From Clostridia bacterium (GTDB lineage Bacteria; Bacillota; Clostridia; Oscillospirales; Acutalibacteraceae): 38,372 bases of DNA. The translations under genes were made by a program, and so were the position numbers. Of this stretch, positions 2,812 to 37,299 are shown in pieces. A model generated the notes under the pieces. That model worked only from the letters and a program-made list of their open reading frames with translations, ran no database searches and was not told the DNA's origin. Location: contig JAFSCI010000040.1 in NCBI GenBank assembly GCA_017436815.1, positions 1 through 38,372 of the forward strand. The letters are read 5' to 3'. Within the stretch, counting starts at the first letter, position 1; each line of letters opens with the position of its first letter.

Positions 2812-4467
2812 TCAGTAGGAATTAAATTCATCAAGCAACCATTTATTTCGGTTTTTAAGCCAATTTCTAAGATCGTCCACGTTAGCAACCAAGGTAGGCT
2901 TCGGTGTGTTTTCAAAAGCACTGCTTGTGGTAAAGGTCCAACCCGCAGTGGTAAAGTTGCGGTAAAACGACGCTTTATATTCGTTATAAAATTTATCGAC
3001 CATATTTTTGCCGAGCTCGTTATCCTCATAAGTATTTACAATCTGAGGCTGAAGCTCGTTATAGCGTGCTTTAACCAGTTTTTTAAACTCATTATTTTGC
3101 ATTAAGGTAACGTACCACGGGAACGAACGCTGACACCATAGTCCTTTATAGCTCGCGCCCAGATTGTTACCGCTCATATAGTCGGCATACGGCGCAAAGT
3201 TTGCGTTTGCATTACCCATAGATAAGTCAAAGTCCCAAACGGGTCCGGCGTAAACGATGGAATCTTTTATATAAAAGCGGGGCGATGAATAGTGGAAATC
3301 GAGCATTTTCAGATACTCGTTGGCAATATAGAAATTGACAAACGATTCTATATCGATATACTTTTTCATCTGATTTATATCGCCCGATTTTATTGCCGCA
3401 TCAGCATTATCGAGTATGGTTTGAAGCTTTTTCTTTTGTGCGGCTGTGGGTTTTTCAGGCTCGTTAACCTCAAAACGTGCGTTTAAAGACGAAGTTGTAA
3501 CGTAGGTTACATCGCCACCCGATTTTTCGGTTATCTCGATTAAAAAGTCGCCGTTTTCTACGTCTATATCTATGCGGTCTTTATTAGCCTCGACCTTCTC
3601 TGTAAGCAAATAGTTTCCTCTATACTGACCGTTTACGTACACGTCTACAAAGCGGTATTCGGCGCAGTATTTTACGCCTGCACGTTTAGAAAACTCTAAT
3701 GCTATGGCATTGCGAAGCAGAGTTTTATCGAACGCATTGGCCAGCAAATACCAGCCTCTGTCATCACCCATACCGAAAAGATTTTGTTTCTCAGAAAACT
3801 TTATATTATACGGTGCTTTGGCAAAATGTGCTGTGGTGTTACCTCTTATTCTTATTTGGGCAGAATTGTCTATAACCAGGGTATTAAGCGCACCGCTATG
3901 GTCTACCACCGAAACCTTTGCGCCAACGTAGCCGCCGTTAACGGTCGGGGCCTTATTGTACTCAATATAAACTGCCGAAATATCTGACGATAAATACTCT
4001 GGCTTGCTTATAGCATTGTTTAAATCTTTAACAATACTATCGACCTCTGACTGAGATGCGTTTTTGCGGTTTAGTGAATCTATAACGTTCACAAGCGCCG
4101 AAACCTGATTTTTGGTTCTGACACCTACGTATTTTTCATAACCCTTAGGGATAGAATTTTTAAGAGAATCGAGCTGAGAAAAATCGACCTTTTTGTTCTG
4201 AGTATTCCCCGTAACGCCACCGTTTTGATTATTTTGGCCCGATTGGTCGTTATTATTGGGAGTGTTTTGGTCGTTTTCGTTACCGCTCGGCTTATTGGTG
4301 CTTTGAGTGTTAGAAGGAACATCAAAATTCTCGTTATCGGCAGCAAGCTGCTCATCAGTCTGATTATAAAGCGATGATAAATCTATCTGCTGAGGCTTGC
4401 AGCCAGCAAATGATAAACAAATACATATTACTAATATAGTGGAAAGTGCCTTTTTAAAATTTATCAA
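2812..4467 (-). CDS. CotH-family lipoprotein (spore coat kinase-like)
   Basis: A CotH-fold protein carried on a lipoprotein anchor. CotH proteins are atypical kinases, and B. subtilis CotH phosphorylates spore coat proteins. Residues 1-23 form a lipoprotein signal with Cys23 (SFAGC). A low-complexity Asn/Gln/Pro linker spans about 55-95. A helical segment (about 110-155) follows, then the CotH domain with RIRGNTT, KAPYNIKF, the RGNYLLTEK block and the hallmark GPVWDFDL near residue 410. The start codon is TTG, with a GGGGGG ribosome-binding site; the only nearby ATG (4483) is out of frame. It is the first gene of an operon with pncB. The substrate is unknown, and a general surface-protein role is as likely as a spore coat role. 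Confidence 0.88.
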   Translation of the reverse strand: MINFKKALSTILVICICLSFAGCKPQQIDLSSLYNQTDEQLAADNENFDVPSNTQSTNKPSGNENDQNTPNNNDQSGQNNQNGGVTGNTQNKKVDFSQLDSLKNSIPKGYEKYVGVRTKNQVSALVNVIDSLNRKNASQSEVDSIVKDLNNAISKPEYLSSDISAVYIEYNKAPTVNGGYVGAKVSVVDHSGALNTLVIDNSAQIRIRGNTTAHFAKAPYNIKFSEKQNLFGMGDDRGWYLLANAFDKTLLRNAIALEFSKRAGVKYCAEYRFVDVYVNGQYRGNYLLTEKVEANKDRIDIDVENGDFLIEITEKSGGDVTYVTTSSLNARFEVNEPEKPTAAQKKKLQTILDNADAAIKSGDINQMKKYIDIESFVNFYIANEYLKMLDFHYSSPRFYIKDSIVYAGPVWDFDLSMGNANANFAPYADYMSGNNLGASYKGLWCQRSFPWYVTLMQNNEFKKLVKARYNELQPQIVNTYEDNELGKNMVDKFYNEYKASFYRNFTTAGWTFTTSSAFENTPKPTLVANVDDLRNWLKNRNKWLLDEFNSY

Positions 4468-4567: not shown

Positions 4568-6506
<1,939 letters not shown>

Positions 6507-24042: not shown

Positions 24043-25233
24043 TTACTCCATCTGTGCGGGCACTACCGCACCTGAATCTTTTAATCTTTGTTTTAATGCT
24101 TTAATATCTATTTTTGTTGGAGATGTGTTTTCTATGGCCGATAACGCTGCAGCAGTACCTGCCGCCTGCCCCATTGCCATACAGCTTGCCTTTACTCTTA
24201 AGGCCGAGTTGGTTTCGCGGTCACTCGATACACATCGGCCCGCTGTAATTAAATTTTTAAACCCTTTTGGCAGCATTGAAGTGTAACGAATCGTAGGGGT
24301 TACACCGCTTGTAATATACTTTATAAGAGCAGGTTCGTTTTCTCGGTGTATGTCTACAAACCAAAACGAGTAGCAAATCGAATCTTCAAAAACCTTACCC
24401 GCAACAAAGTCATCAACGTTCATACTTGTTATACCCTTTATTCGCCTGCCCTCACGCTGCGCTACCATTGGAGCCGACGCCATTATACCATTTTGGCCCT
24501 GATTCTTTAAATTCAGCATTTGCTCAAACAGCATTTTCCTTGCGGCTATATTGGCCATGGTTAAAGCATCTGAGTCGGTTGCATCCATTTTATTTACATG
24601 ATTATGATTATCGCCAAAATCAAGCACATAATCACCATTACCGATAACCGCAGGATAATACCGTATAGTACCAGGCTGGAAAGTACCATTGTTGTCGCCT
24701 GCATCAAAATTGGCGCCTGCAAATGCGCTTAAATCGCCGTCGCCCGTAGTGTCGATAAACACCTTGCTTTGAATGGTCTTAAGCCCCTGCTTTGTAGATA
24801 TTATAACATTTTTAATATGTTTTTCTCCATCTACTTGCTCAACATTTACATCTACAACGGGTTGAGAATAATAAATATCCACACCCTCGCTCAGCAGCAT
24901 ATCATCCATAACCTTTGCAGCAGCTACAGGGTTTACCTTTACAGAATACTGAGCATGATGAACATAGGGTGCATACATATCGGGAATTTCGGCAAAGCCG
25001 AGTTCTTCAAGCTTTTTTACAAACTCAAGACCTATTCCCTTAATTACCATTTTATCACCGCTTTTAAAAGGGTTATTAAACTGATCTATTGCGCAATTTC
25101 CACCAATCGTAAGTATTCCACCCGGGGTGAATTCTTTTTCTAAAACTGCAGTTTTAGCTCCCTGTCTTGCGGCAGCAACCGCAGCGGTAAAGCCTGCGCT
25201 GCCTAGTCCGCACACTACAACGTCGTATTGCAT
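24043..25233 (-). CDS. FAD-dependent oxidoreductase (FAD_oxidored family)
   Basis: A 396-aa flavoprotein. The dinucleotide-binding GxGxxG is G9-x-G11-x-x-G14, followed by AARQGAKTAVLEK. A second FAD contact is FIDTTGDGDLSAFAGA (about 163-178), and the C-terminus has GRCVSSDRETNSALRV and MGQAAGTAAAL, typical of the PF12831-type family found beside glycan-degradation genes. The substrate is not known for most members; a sugar or glycoside oxidation is plausible from context. It is a paralogue of the next upstream gene but lacks that protein's ~150-residue C-terminal domain. Ribosome-binding site GAGGTGA. No signal peptide, so cytoplasmic. Confidence 0.88.
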   Translation of the reverse strand: MQYDVVVCGLGSAGFTAAVAAARQGAKTAVLEKEFTPGGILTIGGNCAIDQFNNPFKSGDKMVIKGIGLEFVKKLEELGFAEIPDMYAPYVHHAQYSVKVNPVAAAKVMDDMLLSEGVDIYYSQPVVDVNVEQVDGEKHIKNVIISTKQGLKTIQSKVFIDTTGDGDLSAFAGANFDAGDNNGTFQPGTIRYYPAVIGNGDYVLDFGDNHNHVNKMDATDSDALTMANIAARKMLFEQMLNLKNQGQNGIMASAPMVAQREGRRIKGITSMNVDDFVAGKVFEDSICYSFWFVDIHRENEPALIKYITSGVTPTIRYTSMLPKGFKNLITAGRCVSSDRETNSALRVKASCMAMGQAAGTAAALSAIENTSPTKIDIKALKQRLKDSGAVVPAQME

Positions 25234-25242
25234 TTTATCACC

Positions 25243-27012
25243 TCAAAAAATCATAAAACTGAATATATTCGCTGTATTTGTACCGTAAGTTTTCCCCGGC
25301 ACAAATTCTATGCTTTTTACTGTATCTGCCACCGAAATTTTAACAAGGCGCTGGTGGTTATCGGTTACCGATACAGTCTTTATCTCACCGCTACTCAAAA
25401 CTATTTTTACCTCAAAATCGCAAAGCATGGTTTTGGGGATATATGCCTTCGGGAAAGAAAGCTTTATATTGTTGACCATGTGTCTGTGCAGCTTGTATTC
25501 ACGCTCGCTAAGAGTTTCACGGTTTAAGTCACTGTCGAAAACAAGCTTAATAAAATCGACGTATTCGCCGCTTTCAAATTCATACCTTGCAAACCCGCCA
25601 ATTTGAGCCACTGCACAGTTTGTATTATTCCCTACCTTGCGGTCGATACCGTTACGTAAATTTTCAGCATTCTCGAAATCAGAGATAAGAGTAGCATTTT
25701 TGGTTTTCTCAGGCACAAACGGACGAGTAAACGGCAGATAGCAATCGTCGGTCATAAGAGCGTTTTGAAGCTCGCTTATATGCTCTAAAACACCTCTTGG
25801 CAAAATATTTTTAGCCTTTGCAATGGCCGCCGCAGTACCTGCTGCCTGACCCAAAAGCGCACAGGTAGCCATTACTCTTGTAGAGCTCATTGCAGCGTGG
25901 GTAACACTTATGTTGCGACCCGCGAACATAAGATTTTTAATGTTTTTTGAATATAAGCATCTGTAAGGAATACCATACGGCGAGGGCGCCGGGTGGAAAA
26001 TGTTAGGCGCATCTTTACCGTATAAGCCTTTGGGATTATGGTCGTCCATAGTCCAGCCGCCATAGGCTATAATATCAAAGAATTTGCCCTCGGCCAAAAC
26101 GTCGTTTTCGGTCATTACAAGGTCGCCGATATATCTTCTGGATTCACGTTTGCCGGGTAGTATGCCGACAAAATCCAAATCGTAATTTTTGTTTTTTTCC
26201 TTTTGTGACGGGTCGTTTTTAACAAAGTCCCAAATACCGTAAACCGCCTTTAAAAGCTCATCTCTTATAATTTCGGTATCGTCTATGGTGTTCATAAGAC
26301 CGCCAAACTCAATAAACCAGAAATTTTCAAAATCGTTAGATAAATCGGGCATTCTGAACGGTAAATCTTTTTCGGTGAATTTCTTGGCCCATTTTGGCGG
26401 TATAAATTCGCGCTCATACGGGTATTCTCTTGCCTGAATTAAAAGGCTCATGCCCATTGTTTTTTTATCGGCCTTCTCAGGCGCTATGCTCTCGTTATAC
26501 TCATCTCTTGCCTCTCTGCCCTGCATAAACAAAGCATTTGATATGGGCGCTAAAATGCTATCTCCCGAGCAGTCTATAAAAATATCGGCCTTAATATCAA
26601 AAAACTTCTGTGTGGTGGTTTGCCAACACTCGACCGAGAGAATCGTATCATCCTCACATTTGCCACCAAGACACGAGCAATTAAGCAAAAGTGTAATGTT
26701 TGGCTCATTTTGAACCATTTCGAGTATAACGGTATCCCAGATATTATAATTTTTGTACGGATTTCGGTAGTAGTTGTTAAGCATAAGTTCTTCAATTATG
26801 CCTGTTTCGTGCATATTATCGCCATTAGCACCGCAAACCCACATACGTATCTCACTGGAGGCATTTCCGCCAAGCATAGGTCTGTCTTGCACAAGGGTTA
26901 CCTTTGCGCCGTGACGAGCTGCGCTTACTGCCGCTGCAACGCCCGAAAGGCCTCCGCCTACTACACAAATATCACTTAAAATGTGTTCGGTTTTAAAAAC
27001 ACTTTTTTCCAT
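25243..27012 (-). CDS. FAD-dependent oxidoreductase with C-terminal beta-sandwich-like domain
   Basis: A 589-aa paralogue of the downstream flavoprotein. G19-x-G21-x-x-G24 binds FAD, followed by the LGGNASSEIRMWVCGANGDN-type loop (about 48-67) and FIDCSGDSILAP. GRNISVTHAAMSSTRVMATC and LGQAAGTAAAIA close the FAD fold near residue 400. The remaining residues (about 430-589) are strand-rich (ARYEFESGEYVDFIKLVFDS, KTVSVTDNHQRLVKI) and resemble a discoidin/carbohydrate-binding sandwich; that is a guess from pattern. The ATG is 1 bp after the lipoprotein stop. Its substrate is unknown; it may act on the same sugar pathway as its partner. Confidence 0.88.
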   Translation of the reverse strand: MEKSVFKTEHILSDICVVGGGLSGVAAAVSAARHGAKVTLVQDRPMLGGNASSEIRMWVCGANGDNMHETGIIEELMLNNYYRNPYKNYNIWDTVILEMVQNEPNITLLLNCSCLGGKCEDDTILSVECWQTTTQKFFDIKADIFIDCSGDSILAPISNALFMQGREARDEYNESIAPEKADKKTMGMSLLIQAREYPYEREFIPPKWAKKFTEKDLPFRMPDLSNDFENFWFIEFGGLMNTIDDTEIIRDELLKAVYGIWDFVKNDPSQKEKNKNYDLDFVGILPGKRESRRYIGDLVMTENDVLAEGKFFDIIAYGGWTMDDHNPKGLYGKDAPNIFHPAPSPYGIPYRCLYSKNIKNLMFAGRNISVTHAAMSSTRVMATCALLGQAAGTAAAIAKAKNILPRGVLEHISELQNALMTDDCYLPFTRPFVPEKTKNATLISDFENAENLRNGIDRKVGNNTNCAVAQIGGFARYEFESGEYVDFIKLVFDSDLNRETLSEREYKLHRHMVNNIKLSFPKAYIPKTMLCDFEVKIVLSSGEIKTVSVTDNHQRLVKISVADTVKSIEFVPGKTYGTNTANIFSFMIF

Positions 27013-30547: not shown

Positions 30548-30576
30548 TAAATCACTTATATAAAATGGGTGTTATT

Positions 30577-31329
30577 ATGGAACAAAATCAAGTAAATTCA
30601 AACATTATTTTCGGCCGCAACGCCGTTTTTGAGGCGGTACGCTCTAACAGAGAAATCGACCGCTTATTAGTTGCACATCAAAATACATCGGGCTCGGTAG
30701 CTGCAATAATTGCAAAATGCAAGGAAAAAGGCATTTTAATAAAAGAGGTTCCCTCCTCTAAGCTCGACTTTTTGTGTAATAATCAAAACCACCAGGGTGT
30801 TGCCGCCATTATAGCAAATTTTGAGTACTGCAGCGTGCAGGATATTTTAGATGCTGCAAAGGAGAAAAATCACAATCCGTTTATAATTATTTGTGATGAA
30901 ATAGAAGACCCGCACAACCTAGGCGCAATAGTCCGCTCGGCCGAGGCCGCAGGTGCTGACGGAATTATTATTCCAAAGCGCAGAGCTGCATCGGTCAACG
31001 CAACGGTAGCAAAGTCGGCAAGCGGCGCACTCGAATATATGAAAATTGCAAGGGTCACAAACCTTGTTAATGAAATGGAATACCTAAAAAAGCAAGGTAT
31101 TTGGATATTCGGCGCCGATATGGGCGAGCCCAACTGGACAAAAACAGATTTTACAGGACCTGTAGCCATTGTAATCGGTAACGAGGGCAAAGGAATAGGA
31201 AGGCTCGTTTTAGAGCATTGCGACCAGGTCGTAAGCCTGCCTATGCTGGGTGAGATTAACTCGCTCAACGCATCGGTTGCCGCAGGTGTTTTAATGTACG
31301 AAGTAGTACGACAAAGAACACTCAAATAA
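30577..31329 (+). CDS. rlmB: RlmB-type 23S rRNA 2'-O-ribose methyltransferase (SpoU/TrmH family)
   Basis: A SPOUT methyltransferase, about 250 aa, predicted to modify a guanosine of 23S rRNA. Residues 5-80 are the SpoU substrate-binding domain (FGRNAVFEAVRS, QNHQGVAA). The catalytic half has the three SpoU motifs: DPHNLGAIVRSAEAAG, IVIGNEGKGIGRL and LPMLGEINSLNASVAAGVLM, which form the trefoil knot. The ATG at 30577 with GGGTG upstream is preferred over the ATG at 30565. First gene of an operon with the 1017-aa membrane protein and metG. Exact target base is inferred from family only. Confidence 0.92.
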   Translation: MEQNQVNSNIIFGRNAVFEAVRSNREIDRLLVAHQNTSGSVAAIIAKCKEKGILIKEVPSSKLDFLCNNQNHQGVAAIIANFEYCSVQDILDAAKEKNHNPFIIICDEIEDPHNLGAIVRSAEAAGADGIIIPKRRAASVNATVAKSASGALEYMKIARVTNLVNEMEYLKKQGIWIFGADMGEPNWTKTDFTGPVAIVIGNEGKGIGRLVLEHCDQVVSLPMLGEINSLNASVAAGVLMYEVVRQRTLK

Positions 31330-31352: not shown

Positions 31353-34300
31353 ATGGGATGGTTTTCAAAAAAGGGTAAGGATATCGACGATATCGACGAC
31401 GGCTTTATCCTTACTGATGATATCGATTTAACAAAACCAAATAATCAAAGCCCTTCGGATCACAATAAATCTTCAAAGGGTATGGCTCCTCACGCCTTAA
31501 CGCCCGACGAGGTTTTACATAAAGGTCAGAATAAACCCAGCCAGGTTTACGAAACCGAGCAGATACCTATGTCTAGCGGAGAAAACGTTGACGTAAACCC
31601 CGCTACTGCTTTGCTTTATAAGCGTATGATGAAGTCTAAAGAGGCCGCTTTGGCTAAAAAGGAAGACAGCAAGCCTCAGCAAAATAATCCTGTTACATCG
31701 AGCCAATCTTACGTTATAAAGCCTTCGGTTAGTGATGAAGGCGCGCAAAATCCAAAAACCGAAGAAGTCAAAATCGCACCTGACGTAAAGGCGGATATTG
31801 AAAGGACCATTAACGAGCTTAAGGGCAACGACAAGCCCGAAGCTCCAAAGGCAGAGGTTAAGACTGCGGCTCCAAAAGCTGAGGCCGAAGTTCAAAAGTC
31901 AGAGCCCGAAACACCAAAGGTAGAAACTAAAGCTCCAAAGGCTGAACCCCAGGCTCCGAAATCAGAGCCCGAGGCCCCAAAAACCGCGCAGGTGGAAGAG
32001 CAGATCCAGCAAATGATAGAAGGGCTCAAAGAGGAGTTCAAAGAAGAAACCAATAACGGCGCATCGGCCAATAAAACGGTTGCAACCCAAAATGACAATT
32101 CCGATAAATCGAGCGACGAAAATTCTAACACCGCATCTTTGCTTTCACGCTGTATGCCGTATATTATAGACGATAACGGACATAATCACTCGGAAGATTT
32201 TCCGCCCGCCTACACCTTAGACAGTGTTGAAGATATTATAAGCGCTTTTGAAAATAAGGCCGCTAAGCAGGCAAGCCAAACCTACGGCACGTCCGTGCCC
32301 GATTTACATCCAAAAAACAACGCTTCGGCTGTAGCCGGTAAAAAGAGCGTGTTTAAATCTAAGCCACCGCAGAAAAAGCCGAACACTCCAGCCGAAACTT
32401 CGGTCGATATCAAAAAAGCCGCTCCCGACGGCAGCAAAGTAAACGACCAGACACGTGTCGAACACACAAAGCCCGAAAACAGCATAAAAACGTACCAGGC
32501 AAGCTTTTCGACAATAGATATCCCCATAATCGCCAAGAATAACGGTGAGCAATCCACAATAACGTTTGATATTAACGATATTCGCCGCGCCGCCAGCAGT
32601 GATCTTGGCGCAACAAAACAGATTGTTATAAGTGATATCGGCAAAGAAAAGCAAGAATCTATTGAGCAGTTTATAGCTGAAAAGAGCTCTGATTTTGATG
32701 AAATAATAGACGATCTTAACGGCTACACATGTTTTGATGACGCCAAACGAATTCGCGCTCAGCTTTATAAAACTAAGCGCAATAATCTTATAAAATTCTT
32801 TGTTACAGCAGTTTTAACCCTGTTTGTAACAATTATGCGTCTGCCCGTTTTTGATGAGTTACTGTCGGGAAAATCCGACGCTGTATTTCTTATAAGCAGC
32901 ATAGTGCTCTTGGTGCTGGCCATAGTAAACATAAAAACCTTACTTTCGGTCAAAAATATTTTTAAAGGCGCAAAAAACGCCGATCTGCCTGTTGCATTGT
33001 CGGTAATTTCCGTATTGCTGCACTCGGGTGTAACAATGTTGTTTTTTGATACTGCGCAGGTATTAAATTTAGTGCCGCTCGGCGCATTGGCTCTGTCTTT
33101 TTCATCGATGTGTGACTTTTTACACTCGGCCGAAATTACAGACAACTTCAGATTTATTGCCACACCCCAACAAAAGAATATTGCAGGAATTATAAAAAAT
33201 TCCGAGATATCTGAAAAAATCATCAGTACGGGTATTGAAGGCAAGCCGTATATAATTGCCCCACGCAAAACCGTAAACCTTTTAGGCTTTTTAAAGGCGG
33301 CAAATTCCAATAGCCACGCTGCCAAAAGAATACCTCTTATTACCGTTATAACCGTTGCGGCAGCTTTGGTAATAGGTGTCGCATCGTTCTTTATATTAGA
33401 TGATGTAAGCGCCGCTTTAAGCGCCTTTACAATTACTATGTGTCTTGGTTGCTCGCCGATTTCACATTTACTTGGCGCATTGCCGACCAAATGTATGTCA
33501 TCGCGCCTTGCAAACAACGACGCTATGATTTGCGGCTATGAAGCGGCAATGGAGGTCGAACCCGTAAACTGCGTTACACTCAGTGCCGCAGACCTGTTCC
33601 CAAACAATTCAATTGAGCTTATAAATTTAAAGGTTCTTAATAAAAACTCGCTTGATAAAACCTTCTTGGATGCCGCTTCAATTACGCTGAGCGCACAGAG
33701 TCCGCTTTACAATGTTTTTAAAGATATTGCAAAGTCCTACGACTCTCCTCTGCCGTATTGCGATAACGTAAAATACGAAGACAAAATGGGCGTTAGCGGT
33801 TGGGTAGACGACCGCCACATTTTCATTGGCAACCGCACACTTTTAGAGGCGCACTCAATTGCGGTTCCATCGGTTGAGGTTGACAAAAAAATACTTAAGA
33901 AGGGCTACTTCCCCGTTTACGTTGCCTGCAACGGCAAAGCCTTCGCACTGCTTATGGTAAGATACATTCCAAAAAAATCCATAAAGCACAAGCTTATGCG
34001 CCTTGCATCTATGGGAGTCACCTTCTACCTTAACAGCACCGATCCGAACATAAACACCAAAATGGTAATAGATTACTTTGGCCTTTTTGATGACTCGGTA
34101 TATTCATTAAAATCTGACCAGATTAAAGCGCTTAAAGAAGCCACCAACTACAAAGAAAGCTGTTTTGCTCCCGCCTGCTTTAAGGGTGGTATAGACGGAC
34201 TTCTGGCGGTAGTTATAGAGTCTATTAAACTAAAGACCTGCATTGGCGTTATGGGCGTGCTTAATATAATGTGTGTTATTTTGGGAATATTCGCATTTGC

Positions 34301-34406
34301 GTTTGCCGTTTTCTCGGGCAGCTTCTCTGTAATAACCACAACCATACTGTTAATCTGGCAGCTTGTATCGGCCGTAATAGGTCTGTTCTCACTGTTTATT
34401 AAATAA
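31353..34406 (+). CDS. Large membrane protein, degenerate P1B-ATPase-like core with disordered N-terminus
   Basis: 1017 aa. Residues 1 to about 475 are hydrophilic and low-complexity, with repeating PKAE/PKSE/PKVE units at about 160-215; two more conserved-looking acidic patches surround about 265-300 and 385-470. From 477 the protein is membranous and follows the P1B ATPase plan: two pairs of helices, a soluble loop shorter than a normal actuator domain, a helix pair with CSP (700-702) where metal pumps have CPC, then a P/N-domain-like part (MGVSGWVDDRHIFIGNRTLL matches the GxGVxGxVxG..VxxGN block), and two final helices. DKTGT is replaced by SAADLF (744-749), TGD by STD (895-897), and GDGxND is missing, so it cannot be phosphorylated as a pump. 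The match to P1B proteins is by eye. Ribosome-binding site GGGAGA. Function unknown. Confidence 0.8.
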   Translation: MGWFSKKGKDIDDIDDGFILTDDIDLTKPNNQSPSDHNKSSKGMAPHALTPDEVLHKGQNKPSQVYETEQIPMSSGENVDVNPATALLYKRMMKSKEAALAKKEDSKPQQNNPVTSSQSYVIKPSVSDEGAQNPKTEEVKIAPDVKADIERTINELKGNDKPEAPKAEVKTAAPKAEAEVQKSEPETPKVETKAPKAEPQAPKSEPEAPKTAQVEEQIQQMIEGLKEEFKEETNNGASANKTVATQNDNSDKSSDENSNTASLLSRCMPYIIDDNGHNHSEDFPPAYTLDSVEDIISAFENKAAKQASQTYGTSVPDLHPKNNASAVAGKKSVFKSKPPQKKPNTPAETSVDIKKAAPDGSKVNDQTRVEHTKPENSIKTYQASFSTIDIPIIAKNNGEQSTITFDINDIRRAASSDLGATKQIVISDIGKEKQESIEQFIAEKSSDFDEIIDDLNGYTCFDDAKRIRAQLYKTKRNNLIKFFVTAVLTLFVTIMRLPVFDELLSGKSDAVFLISSIVLLVLAIVNIKTLLSVKNIFKGAKNADLPVALSVISVLLHSGVTMLFFDTAQVLNLVPLGALALSFSSMCDFLHSAEITDNFRFIATPQQKNIAGIIKNSEISEKIISTGIEGKPYIIAPRKTVNLLGFLKAANSNSHAAKRIPLITVITVAAALVIGVASFFILDDVSAALSAFTITMCLGCSPISHLLGALPTKCMSSRLANNDAMICGYEAAMEVEPVNCVTLSAADLFPNNSIELINLKVLNKNSLDKTFLDAASITLSAQSPLYNVFKDIAKSYDSPLPYCDNVKYEDKMGVSGWVDDRHIFIGNRTLLEAHSIAVPSVEVDKKILKKGYFPVYVACNGKAFALLMVRYIPKKSIKHKLMRLASMGVTFYLNSTDPNINTKMVIDYFGLFDDSVYSLKSDQIKALKEATNYKESCFAPACFKGGIDGLLAVVIESIKLKTCIGVMGVLNIMCVILGIFAFAFAVFSGSFSVITTTILLIWQLVSAVIGLFSLFIK

Positions 34407-34428: not shown

Positions 34429-36348
34429 TTGGAAAAGCAAAAATTTTATATTACCACCGCTATAGCGTATTCTTCACGCAAGCCACACATTGGCAACACC
34501 TATGACGTTGTACTTGCCGATGCTATAGCACGTTATAAAAGAACCAAGGGCTACGACGTTTATTTTCTTACCGGCTCTGACGAGCACGGTCAGAAAATAG
34601 AGCAGGAGGCTCTTAACAAGGGCGTTACTCCTAAGGAGTACGTAGATGAAGTATCGGGTGAAATCAAGCGTGTATGGGACTGTCTTAACGTTACCTATGA
34701 CCGCTTTATAAGAACTACCGACGCCGACCACGAGGATGCCGTTAAGAAAATATTTAAAAAGCTTTACGAGCAGGGCGATATTTACAAGAGCGAATACTCG
34801 GGCAAATACTGTGTTCCGTGTGAATCGTTCTTTACCGAATCTCAGCTTGTAGACGGCAAATGTCCCGACTGCGGCAGAGAGGTTACCGATGCTAAAGAGG
34901 AAGCATATTTCTTAAGACTCAGCAAATATCAGGACAAGCTACTCGAATATTACGAGAGCAATCCCGACTTCTTCAAGCCCGACTCCCGCCGCGCCGAAAT
35001 GGTAAACAACTTTATAAAGCCCGGTCTTGCCGACCTTTGCGTTTCACGTTCATCGTTTAAGTGGGGTATTCCCGTTGAGTTTGATGACAAGCACGTTATT
35101 TACGTTTGGATAGACGCTTTATCCAACTACATTACCGGTATAGGCTATAATCCCGACGGCAGCAGCGAGCAGTACAAACGCTTATGGCCTGCAGATTTGC
35201 ACGTTATAGGCAAAGACATTGTGCGCTTCCACACAATTTACTGGCCCATAATTTTAATGGCTTTAGGCGAACCGTTGCCCAAGCAGGTTTTGGGTCATCC
35301 GTGGCTGTTATTCGGTGAGGATAAAATGAGCAAATCAAAGGGCAACATTATTTATGCCGACGATCTTGCAAAGCGTTTTGGCGCAGATGCAGTTCGTTAC
35401 TATCTGCTTAGCGAGATGCCCTTTGCGCAAGACGGCACCATAACCTATGAAAACTTTATTGCGCGTTTTAATACCGATCTTGCCAACACAATAGGAAATC
35501 TTGTAAACCGCACCGTTGCTATGACAAACAAGTATTTTGACGGTAAGGTGGCTTACGTAAGCGAAGAAAATGAGCTTGATGACGATTTATTCGAAACAGC
35601 AGGCACCTGCGTAGAAAAGTACTTCAAATATATGGACACCTATAAGAACGCCGATGCCGTAGAGTCAATTATGACTCTGGCCCGTCGTTGCAACAAATAT
35701 ATTGATGAAACTACACCCTGGGTACTTGCAAAGAGCGAAGAAAACAAAACAAGACTCAACAACGTTTTATGCAACCTGCTTTCTTGCATAAGGGTTATTG
35801 GCGCAATGCTCACCCCCATCACACCCGAGTGCTGTGAATCTATAGCAGGCCAAATAAACGCTACACTTGATTTTGACGCTAAAGCCGTAAGAGAGTTCAG
35901 CGTTGGTCAGGCTCAGGTTCTATTTGCCCGCATAGATGCCGAAAAGGTATTAAAGGAGCTAAATGAAGAAATCGAAAAAGCCAAGCAGGCAGCAAAGCCC
36001 AAGGCAGAAAACGTAGCCACCATAAGCGAAATAGCAATCGACGATTTTGCAAAGGTTAATCTTATAACCGCAAAGGTTATTGCCTGCGAGCCCATACCAA
36101 AGGCCAAAAAGCTCTTAAAGCTCACCTTAGATGACGGCAGCGGTAAAAACCGCACGGTAGCAAGCGGTATTGCGCTGCACTACACACCCGATGAGCTTAT
36201 CGGAAAAACCGTAATAGTAGTTGCCAACCTGAAGCCCGCCACACTTTGCGGTGTAGAAAGCTGCGGTATGATTCTTGCGGCCGATGACGGCGAAAAGGTT
36301 AAGGTCATTTTTGCCGACGGTATAACTCCGGGCAGCAATGTAAGATAA
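34429..36348 (+). CDS. metG: Methionyl-tRNA synthetase
   Basis: Charges tRNA-Met. The 639-aa class I synthetase shows HIGN in the first 25 residues, a zinc knuckle with C128/C131 and C145/C148, the KMSKS loop KMSKSKGN from residue 299, the anticodon-binding helical domain, and a C-terminal EMAP-like tRNA-binding domain (about 535-639; KVNLITAKVIACEP, VASGIALHYTPDELIG). The start codon is TTG with a perfect AGGAGG 8 bp upstream; the next methionine is far inside the fold. Stop overlaps the tatD start (TAATG). Confidence 0.97.
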   Translation: MEKQKFYITTAIAYSSRKPHIGNTYDVVLADAIARYKRTKGYDVYFLTGSDEHGQKIEQEALNKGVTPKEYVDEVSGEIKRVWDCLNVTYDRFIRTTDADHEDAVKKIFKKLYEQGDIYKSEYSGKYCVPCESFFTESQLVDGKCPDCGREVTDAKEEAYFLRLSKYQDKLLEYYESNPDFFKPDSRRAEMVNNFIKPGLADLCVSRSSFKWGIPVEFDDKHVIYVWIDALSNYITGIGYNPDGSSEQYKRLWPADLHVIGKDIVRFHTIYWPIILMALGEPLPKQVLGHPWLLFGEDKMSKSKGNIIYADDLAKRFGADAVRYYLLSEMPFAQDGTITYENFIARFNTDLANTIGNLVNRTVAMTNKYFDGKVAYVSEENELDDDLFETAGTCVEKYFKYMDTYKNADAVESIMTLARRCNKYIDETTPWVLAKSEENKTRLNNVLCNLLSCIRVIGAMLTPITPECCESIAGQINATLDFDAKAVREFSVGQAQVLFARIDAEKVLKELNEEIEKAKQAAKPKAENVATISEIAIDDFAKVNLITAKVIACEPIPKAKKLLKLTLDDGSGKNRTVASGIALHYTPDELIGKTVIVVANLKPATLCGVESCGMILAADDGEKVKVIFADGITPGSNVR

Positions 36349-37136
36349 TGGATTTTAACTTTGCTACCGCACCACAAGGAAGTATATTCGACACCCACGC
36401 CCACTATGATGACGAGCGGTTCGACTCTGACAGATACGAACTGCTGGCCTCGTTAAAAAACAGCGGTGTTGGTGGCGTAATAAACTGCGCAGTTGACATT
36501 GAGTCCTCAAAAAACGTAATAAAAATAGCCGAGGATTTTGATTTTTGTTACTCGGCGGTAGGTTATCACCCCGAAAATTTACCCGACTCAAAATCGCTGG
36601 ACTTTGAAAAGCTATGTGAGCTTATAAAACACAAAAGTGTTGTTGCAATTGGTGAAATCGGGCTTGATTATTACTGGCATCAGGACAACAAGGACTACCA
36701 AAAACAGTCGTTTTTGTTGCAGACCGAATTTGCAATAAAAAATAATTTACCCGTAATCGTGCACGACCGTGAGGCCCACGCAGACACTTTAAGTATTTTG
36801 CAGGCCAAAAAACCTCGCGGAGTTTTGCATTGTTTTTCGGGCAGTGTCGAAATGGCCGAAAGCATACTAAAGCTTGGTATGTACATTGGCGTAGGCGGAG
36901 TTGTAACCTTTAAAAATTCAAAAAAATTAGCAGAAGTTGTAAAAAGCTTGCCGCTAAACAGAATTTTATTGGAGACCGATGCGCCCTATATGGCACCCGA
37001 GCCCTTCAGAGGCAAAACAAACAATTCGGCATATATTTTATTTGTTGCGAAAAAAATCGCCGAAATTAAGGGTGTTACCGAAACCGAGGTTTTAGAGCAA
37101 ACCTATCTAAACGCAAAAAATCTTTTTGGTGTTTAG
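36348..37136 (+). CDS. TatD-family metal-dependent hydrolase/DNase
   Basis: A 262-aa TIM-barrel hydrolase; family members show metal-dependent 3'-5' DNase activity. The metal ligands are visible in order: FDTHAHYDD (H17, H19), GEIGLDYYW with its glutamate, VHDREAH, LHCFSGS and the closing ETDAPYMAPEP. The ATG overlaps the metG stop by one base. The metG-tatD pairing is common in Firmicutes. TatD alternatives include D-Tyr-tRNA deacylase-like roles, not supported here. Confidence 0.93.
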   Translation: MDFNFATAPQGSIFDTHAHYDDERFDSDRYELLASLKNSGVGGVINCAVDIESSKNVIKIAEDFDFCYSAVGYHPENLPDSKSLDFEKLCELIKHKSVVAIGEIGLDYYWHQDNKDYQKQSFLLQTEFAIKNNLPVIVHDREAHADTLSILQAKKPRGVLHCFSGSVEMAESILKLGMYIGVGGVVTFKNSKKLAEVVKSLPLNRILLETDAPYMAPEPFRGKTNNSAYILFVAKKIAEIKGVTETEVLEQTYLNAKNLFGV

Positions 37137-37194: not shown

Positions 37195-37299
37195 GTGAAC
37201 GATCAGAACAAGAACCAGAACAACCAGAATAACCAAAACAAAAACAACCAGAACCAGAATAAAAACCAGAATAACCAGAACAAAAATCAGAACTATTAA
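37195..37299 (+). CDS. 34-residue Asn/Gln/Lys mini-protein
   Basis: GTG start with AGTGGGGTG about 7-9 bp upstream, 35 codons including TAA, followed 17 bp later by a strong terminator. The product is built almost wholly from Asn (18), Gln (9) and Lys (4) in NQN, NNQ and NKN units, with one Asp near the start and a terminal Tyr. No signal peptide or membrane segment. Codons alternate between synonyms (AAC/AAT, CAG/CAA, AAA/AAG), which is more than a simple trinucleotide run. Prion-like or spore/stress-related roles can be imagined, but none is supported. It is too short for usual gene callers. Confidence 0.65.
   Translation: MNDQNKNQNNQNNQNKNNQNQNKNQNNQNKNQNY

Follow-up and report, generated by a model that had tools for sequence, protein, structure and literature searches.

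A clostridial family of P1B-type pseudo-ATPases with disordered heads, probably reused as membrane binding or scaffold proteins

A gene in DNA from a Clostridia bacterium of the Acutalibacteraceae encodes a member of a bacterial protein family that has the body of a P1B-type metal pump, has lost the catalytic motifs of such pumps and carries a long disordered head. On balance, the family probably descends from a P1B pump that turned pseudo-enzyme and was reused as a membrane protein for binding or scaffolding, a reading that draws on computed fold, loss of motifs, distribution, purifying selection in relatives, a shifted pattern of conservation and enrichment of a short motif in the heads. The original prediction, made from the letters of this DNA, had described a pump-like body without catalytic signatures behind a disordered head, and proposed that the protein could be a receptor, scaffold or regulator; its core observation is confirmed and its interpretation is supported, with such a role being one that the protein may have.

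The window (the whole stretch of 38,372 nucleotides that was analysed) holds the gene as a single open frame of 1017 codons on the + strand, in agreement with the claim of an intact frame over 3 kb; it starts 23 bases past the end of rlmB and ends 22 bases ahead of metG. The features of the locus are as follows, the names of the membrane helices being assigned by comparison with CopA.

30565..31329, + strand: rlmB, 23S rRNA G2251 2'-O-methyltransferase gene, the recurrent upstream neighbour (TIGR00186, E 1.4e-75)
31353..34406, + strand: pseudo-P1B-ATPase gene, 1017 aa (homology searches and predicted fold)
31353..32684, + strand: disordered head, residues 1-444 (charge-hydropathy plot; pLDDT mostly <50 in the model of a relative)
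31839..31985, + strand: PKAE-like repeats, residues 163-211 (pattern positions in the protein)
32733..33158, + strand: membrane helices MA, MB/platform, M1 and M2, residues 461-602 (secondary structure of the model, hydropathy)
33159..33314, + strand: actuator domain remnant, residues 603-654, without TGE
33315..33518, + strand: M3-M4, residues 655-722, with CSP in place of CPC
33582..33602, + strand: former phosphorylation site, residues 744-750, SAADLFP at the DKTGTLT position
33633..33968, + strand: N (former nucleotide-binding) domain, residues 761-872, the family's best-conserved part
33969..34190, + strand: second half of the P domain, residues 873-946, with STD at 895-897 for TGD and without GDGxND
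34191..34403, + strand: M5-M6, residues 947-1017 (secondary structure of the model)
34429..36348, + strand: metG, methionyl-tRNA synthetase gene, the downstream neighbour (profile match)
36348..37136, + strand: tatD-family nuclease gene (profile match)

Structure prediction and fold comparison reveal a fold like that of LpCopA along the whole body, with the eight-helix topology of P1B ATPases across its length, which speaks for homology and not for catalysis; the P-type ATPase layout proposed for the body is borne out by the predicted fold, and an unrelated fold is ruled out. In sequence searches, the window protein matches LpCopA among PDB sequences (E 1e-7) and, weakly, the NCBIfam models for CopA (E 4.5e-11, residues 667-908) and for the heavy-metal ATPase subfamily, and a Pfam search with it gave no match of note. 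The same pattern is seen over the family: any single Pfam model matches at most 5 of 71 members, weakly, the NCBIfam CopA model gives a weak match in 42 of 48, and the NCBIfam matches of members are weak throughout and nearly all to pump models. In a tree of 13 + 20 rows, which carries a long-branch warning, the pseudo-pumps form one clade (support 100/99) apart from the canonical pumps in genomes of the order, which we take to be GTDB's Oscillospirales. Most likely, a P1B-type (CopA-like) pump became a pseudo-enzyme before the radiation of this order.

The loss of catalytic motifs extends throughout the family. Within the last 620 residues of 117 distinct members, DKTG[TS], GDGxND, CPC and SxHP[LIVM] each occur in none, and at the aligned sites TGD, D[KR]TG and GDG..[DN] are likewise absent from all 117, with the letters TGE found in the actuator loop of 2 members and [CST]P[CHST] at the M4 site of 1. 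Loose patterns anywhere in these residues are found in 10 members for TGD, 2 for TGE[SP], 1 for D[KR]TG, 3 for GDG..[DN] and 31 for [CST]P[CHST]. The tally derives from 124 proteins, reduced to 117 once identical bodies were removed. It leaves out L071, L074 and L083-L086, which gave no tblastn hit with the window body and whose genomes contain profile matches, as well as the truncated or disrupted L064 and L082, named loci whose 3' end is cut off or whose body falls below 565 aa, and L042 (G058), in which the pseudo-pump copy is interrupted by one in-frame TGA.

At the old phosphorylation site, the family consensus is D-A-x-D-L-F-P-x-G; the window copy reads SAADLF and has serine in the aspartate column, which is D in 91 of the 117. 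The TGD position now reads T-x-D-P-N-(I/V)-T (STD in the window copy), with the D kept in 115 of the 117. The actuator loop of the window copy is cut to about 52 residues and lacks TGE, and its M4 metal motif is CSP, not CPC. Thus, the marks of a catalytic P1B ATPase, i.e. DKTGT, GDGxND, TGE in a full actuator, TGD, CPC and SxHP, are missing, and every one of the relatives compared lacks an intact phosphorylation motif, so that the proposed loss of catalytic signatures holds across the family. With no sequence motif left for autophosphorylation, dephosphorylation or the binding of metal, the pseudo-pump should not pump, as judged from sequence; the frequent retention of aspartate in the two columns mentioned means that some residual phospho-chemistry may remain in the family.

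What the family has conserved differs from what canonical pumps conserve. By the mean share of the commonest residue among the 117 pseudo-pumps, the N domain ranks highest (0.56), followed by the first (0.54) and second (0.46) parts of the P domain, the actuator remnant (0.43), and the membrane parts (0.36-0.42, with M3-M4 at 0.40). The ranking is reversed in 19 canonical P1B pumps from the order's genomes, in which the N domain is lowest (0.52) and M3-M4 (0.73) and the first part of the P domain (0.75) are high, the latter highest; the pseudo-pump set is more divergent than this control set, and the values are comparable in relative terms only. The membrane helices, with shares of 0.67-0.73 in the canonical pumps, are the least conserved part of the pseudo-pumps. 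The inversion holds for 12 pseudo-pumps from the control genomes (N 0.50, M3-M4 0.39), a subset of 18 intended rows from which the others had already been removed as identical. The control itself comprises the 19 of 20 canonical pumps that passed the motif filter, L177 being dropped as it lacks S.HP[LIV]. With the N domain at the top and the membrane parts at the bottom, the reverse of the order in canonical pumps, we interpret these results as a shift of selection from transport to the N domain. The dead pump body, which keeps from its ancestor the eight-helix membrane part, the shell of the P domain and a full N domain, probably serves as a membrane protein for binding or scaffolding, with the remodelled N domain putatively binding a ligand or a partner.

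The conservation of the N domain is also consistent with a ligand-gated receptor, in which this domain would still bind a nucleotide or another small anion and the P-domain/membrane body and head would change, reporting the state of the cell. In its favour, G813 and G826 are present in all 117 members and new residues have become common in the N-domain columns of W817 (W in 92), H822 (R in 89) and R828 (R in 94). The nucleotide-domain motif SxHP[LIVM] is, however, gone from every member, and the column aligned with the first glycine of CopA's GxG loop is G in only 37 of the 117; we regard a receptor of this type as unlikely, if not negligibly so. A non-canonical transporter or channel, moving its substrate without the DKTGT cycle, would fit with the retention of eight membrane helices and of the M4 proline column (P in 105 of 117), but the membrane helices are the least conserved part, unlike in real pumps, and CPC is absent throughout, which makes transport or channel activity very improbable.

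The lengths of 125 heads range from 10 to 1062 aa (median 384), with a composition rich in E, P, A and K. The charge-hydropathy plot places 122 of the 123 heads of at least 60 aa on its disordered side; when one relative (L141) is modelled at full length, its head is mostly below pLDDT 50. The proposal of a disordered head with PKAE-type repeats stands for the window copy, whose residues 1-444 lie on the disordered side, with PKAE-like repeats at 163-211; a tandem-repeat search reported no DNA tandem array in that repeat region. From pump topology, the head would be on the cytosolic side.

Many heads carry a short motif near the N terminus. In its strict form, [FYW][ST][LIVM][DE][DE][IVL][LIVM], it is present in 36 of 108 heads, a set for which the redundancy filter was weak (ungapped, first 60 residues), and in none in each of 200 shuffles; a broad form is found in 63 of 123 heads, a set that includes near-copies, compared with a shuffle mean of 0.035 and a maximum of 2. 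The strict form is missing from 72 of the 108 heads and the broad form from 60 of the 123, and the strict motif was not found at the N terminus of the window copy. Other clades have, by eye, islands of their own, A-P-H-A-L-T-P-D-E-L in the window's clade and KNLF in another. In the L141 model, which comes without inter-residue error, the motif forms a helix of its own in blocks of mean pLDDT 59 and 48; docking of this helix on the body, which may still occur, was set aside. Among 4517 six-frame ORFs, taken from partly overlapping loci and some of them spurious, 51 have a similar form within their first 90 residues; 48 of the 51 are the pseudo-pump and 3 read as its split N termini. Separate ORFs with N-terminal pieces of the pseudo-pump were observed at L091 and L093. 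At the DNA level, the motif has 12 matches in 60 genomes, compared with 2 for a reversed control pattern; by coordinates, 9 of the 12 lie in pseudo-pump heads and 3 within other proteins. As a genome-wide signal the motif was rejected, since 9 of 12 matches fall in the pseudo-pump gene itself. The long, presumably cytosolic head, which in many members bears a short amphipathic helix at its tip, could act as a tether that captures a cytosolic partner.

The family is close to universal among the sampled genomes of the order. A search with the window protein finds matches in 57 of 60 genomes, its own included (E 1e-3), the weaker second matches being ordinary pumps. A body profile built from 48 rows matches 275 of the order's 295 genomes at E 1e-45, and 219 of the 225 good ones (≥90% complete, ≤5% contaminated), with two matches in two genomes and one in each other matching genome. 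In a class-wide sample, 9/9 genomes of the order match nearly the whole profile at E 2.4e-93 or better; the 236 genomes from other orders reach E 4.3e-42 at best, and their matches, among those listed, are confined to approximately positions 212-507, a stretch that ordinary pumps have too. A phylum-wide sample searched at E 1e-45 gives matches in 3/3 genomes of the order and in 0/296 others. The named loci (the best 80 of 100) are from Caproiciproducens, Caproicibacter, Anaeromassilibacillus, Neglectibacter and many MAGs; Caproiciproducens faecalis belongs to the Acutalibacteraceae according to NCBI.

The locus is also conserved on one side. In 77 of the 80 named loci rlmB was found, always upstream and on the same strand, and the 3 loci without it are all cut contigs; it lies at most 500 bases from the called pseudo-pump start in 76 of the 77, the exception (L093, 1071 bases) having a split head. 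Of the 51 loci, counting the window, in which the body is matched and which share some genomes with the named set, 45 have rlmB adjacent, 3 have it 1.6-4.3 kb off and 3 show none, two of the latter at contig ends. Neighbour clustering over 125 loci gives 97 for rlmB and 29 and 14 for the next downstream clusters. A second conserved neighbour is rejected, as no downstream cluster exceeds 29 of 125; metG, sought beside the pseudo-pump in 56 other loci, was not found there.

Eight genomes with no pseudo-pump match were checked for rlmB. Six have no true rlmB as judged by the gap in E-values (best E 1e-8 to 1e-20, and nothing in G032), which may reflect an assembly gap or a joint loss, the two being indistinguishable. 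In G302 the contig ends within an ORF behind rlmB that reads as a pseudo-pump head, and in G005 rlmB is followed by 408 bases to the contig end without a pseudo-pump start. These cases together suggest that most absences may be assembly gaps. Profile searches of G005, G032 and G040 (the last only 55% complete) gave no full-length match, and G005 and G032 (1.3 and 1.0 Mb) are candidates for real gene loss.

The constancy of rlmB as neighbour, with others varying, and the shared absence in six of eight genomes could be taken to indicate that the protein partners RlmB or membrane-associated ribosome maturation and is kept beside rlmB for this reason. We give this only a slender chance: the joint absence may be a matter of assembly and the adjacency mere co-transcription, G005 has rlmB without a pseudo-pump start behind it, and L078 is without rlmB in the DNA fetched.

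Returning to the pseudo-enzyme reading, its retention by selection, as originally claimed for this gene, holds at the level of the family, given the distribution over the order and body dN/dS values of 0.016-0.127 in the 25 closest pairs of named relatives, a set without the window copy and with dS >1 in some pairs. Head values are 0.06-0.35 in the 22 of 25 pairs that were computable, from uncertain alignments. The window copy is itself one of the more divergent members, its closest relative found being about 33-35% identical over the body. Among the matches listed, no internal stop was found save in G058 and G543. A decaying pump copy, for which the loss of every catalytic motif and the restriction of the dN/dS pairs to relatives might speak, is hardly credible in view of its presence, nearly always in single copy, in 275 of 295 genomes, the purifying selection in 25 pairs and the stable locus, and is rejected for the family.

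A co-occurrence with sporulation genes, raised in the original prediction, did not hold up with SpoIVA, the sole sporulation gene tested, whose absences may be assembly gaps. SpoIVA was found in 257 of the 295 genomes of the order, 212 of these being among the 225 good ones; it is missing from at least 9 good genomes that have the pseudo-pump, and present in 5 of the 6 good genomes that lack a pseudo-pump match. Within the limits of assembly gaps, the two show no sign of coupling and the tie to sporulation is rejected. Elsewhere in the window, 2812-4467 (- strand) encodes a CotH-kinase-family protein (E 3.5e-38), SpoIVA not being found in the window's genome, which is 69% complete. A 550-aa protein resembling Cpn60/GroEL, which the ORF list starts at a TTG codon, is encoded at 4568-6220 (- strand; Pfam E 2e-78), adjacent FAD-dependent oxidoreductases of one Pfam family at 24043-25233 and 25243-27012 (- strand), and a short tandem repeat array of the AACCAGAAC type occupies 37207-37292.

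The signature of P-type ATPases is one phosphorylated aspartate motif, and its loss throughout the order in a family still under strong selection implies that the pump body itself is reusable. The pseudo-pumps provide a clean test case for the function of bacterial pseudo-enzymes and are likely an order-specific cell-biology protein of gut and fermentation bacteria (Caproiciproducens, Caproicibacter, Neglectibacter, Anaeromassilibacillus), with the head motif as a handle for finding the partner. A bolder proposal, to which we give somewhat less than even credence, is that this is the first bacterial P-type pseudo-ATPase family, fixed in the order's ancestor, in which the N domain would have become a sensor or docking module and the helix motif of the head would fish for a dedicated partner, making it an order-specific, probably important membrane hub tied to the rlmB operon. 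A search of the open-access literature found no bacterial P-type pseudo-ATPase family in print.

The closest known systems are the CopA-type P1B copper ATPases (LpCopA, 3rfu/4bbj; AfCopA), which have in common with the pseudo-pumps the eight-helix layout, the P and N domains and the overall fold. In contrast with CopA, the pseudo-pumps lack DKTGT, TGD, GDGxND and CPC, have a shortened actuator, carry a long disordered head with no metal-binding domain reported by Pfam, and conserve the N domain most, rather than the membrane and P parts. PopZ and ZipA are scaffold proteins with E/P-rich disordered linkers, and their combination of a charged, proline-rich disordered linker with a short binding element resembles the pseudo-pump head in outline. 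The apicomplexan guanylyl cyclase PfGC-beta (PMC6592433) carries a degenerate P4-ATPase-like domain; that protein is eukaryotic, of P4 type and a cyclase fusion, whereas the pseudo-pump is bacterial, P1B-like and has a disordered head, and we claim no homology beyond the superfamily. The existence of a degenerate P-type domain in such a cyclase, as described there (PMC6592433), makes the reuse of a pump body plausible.
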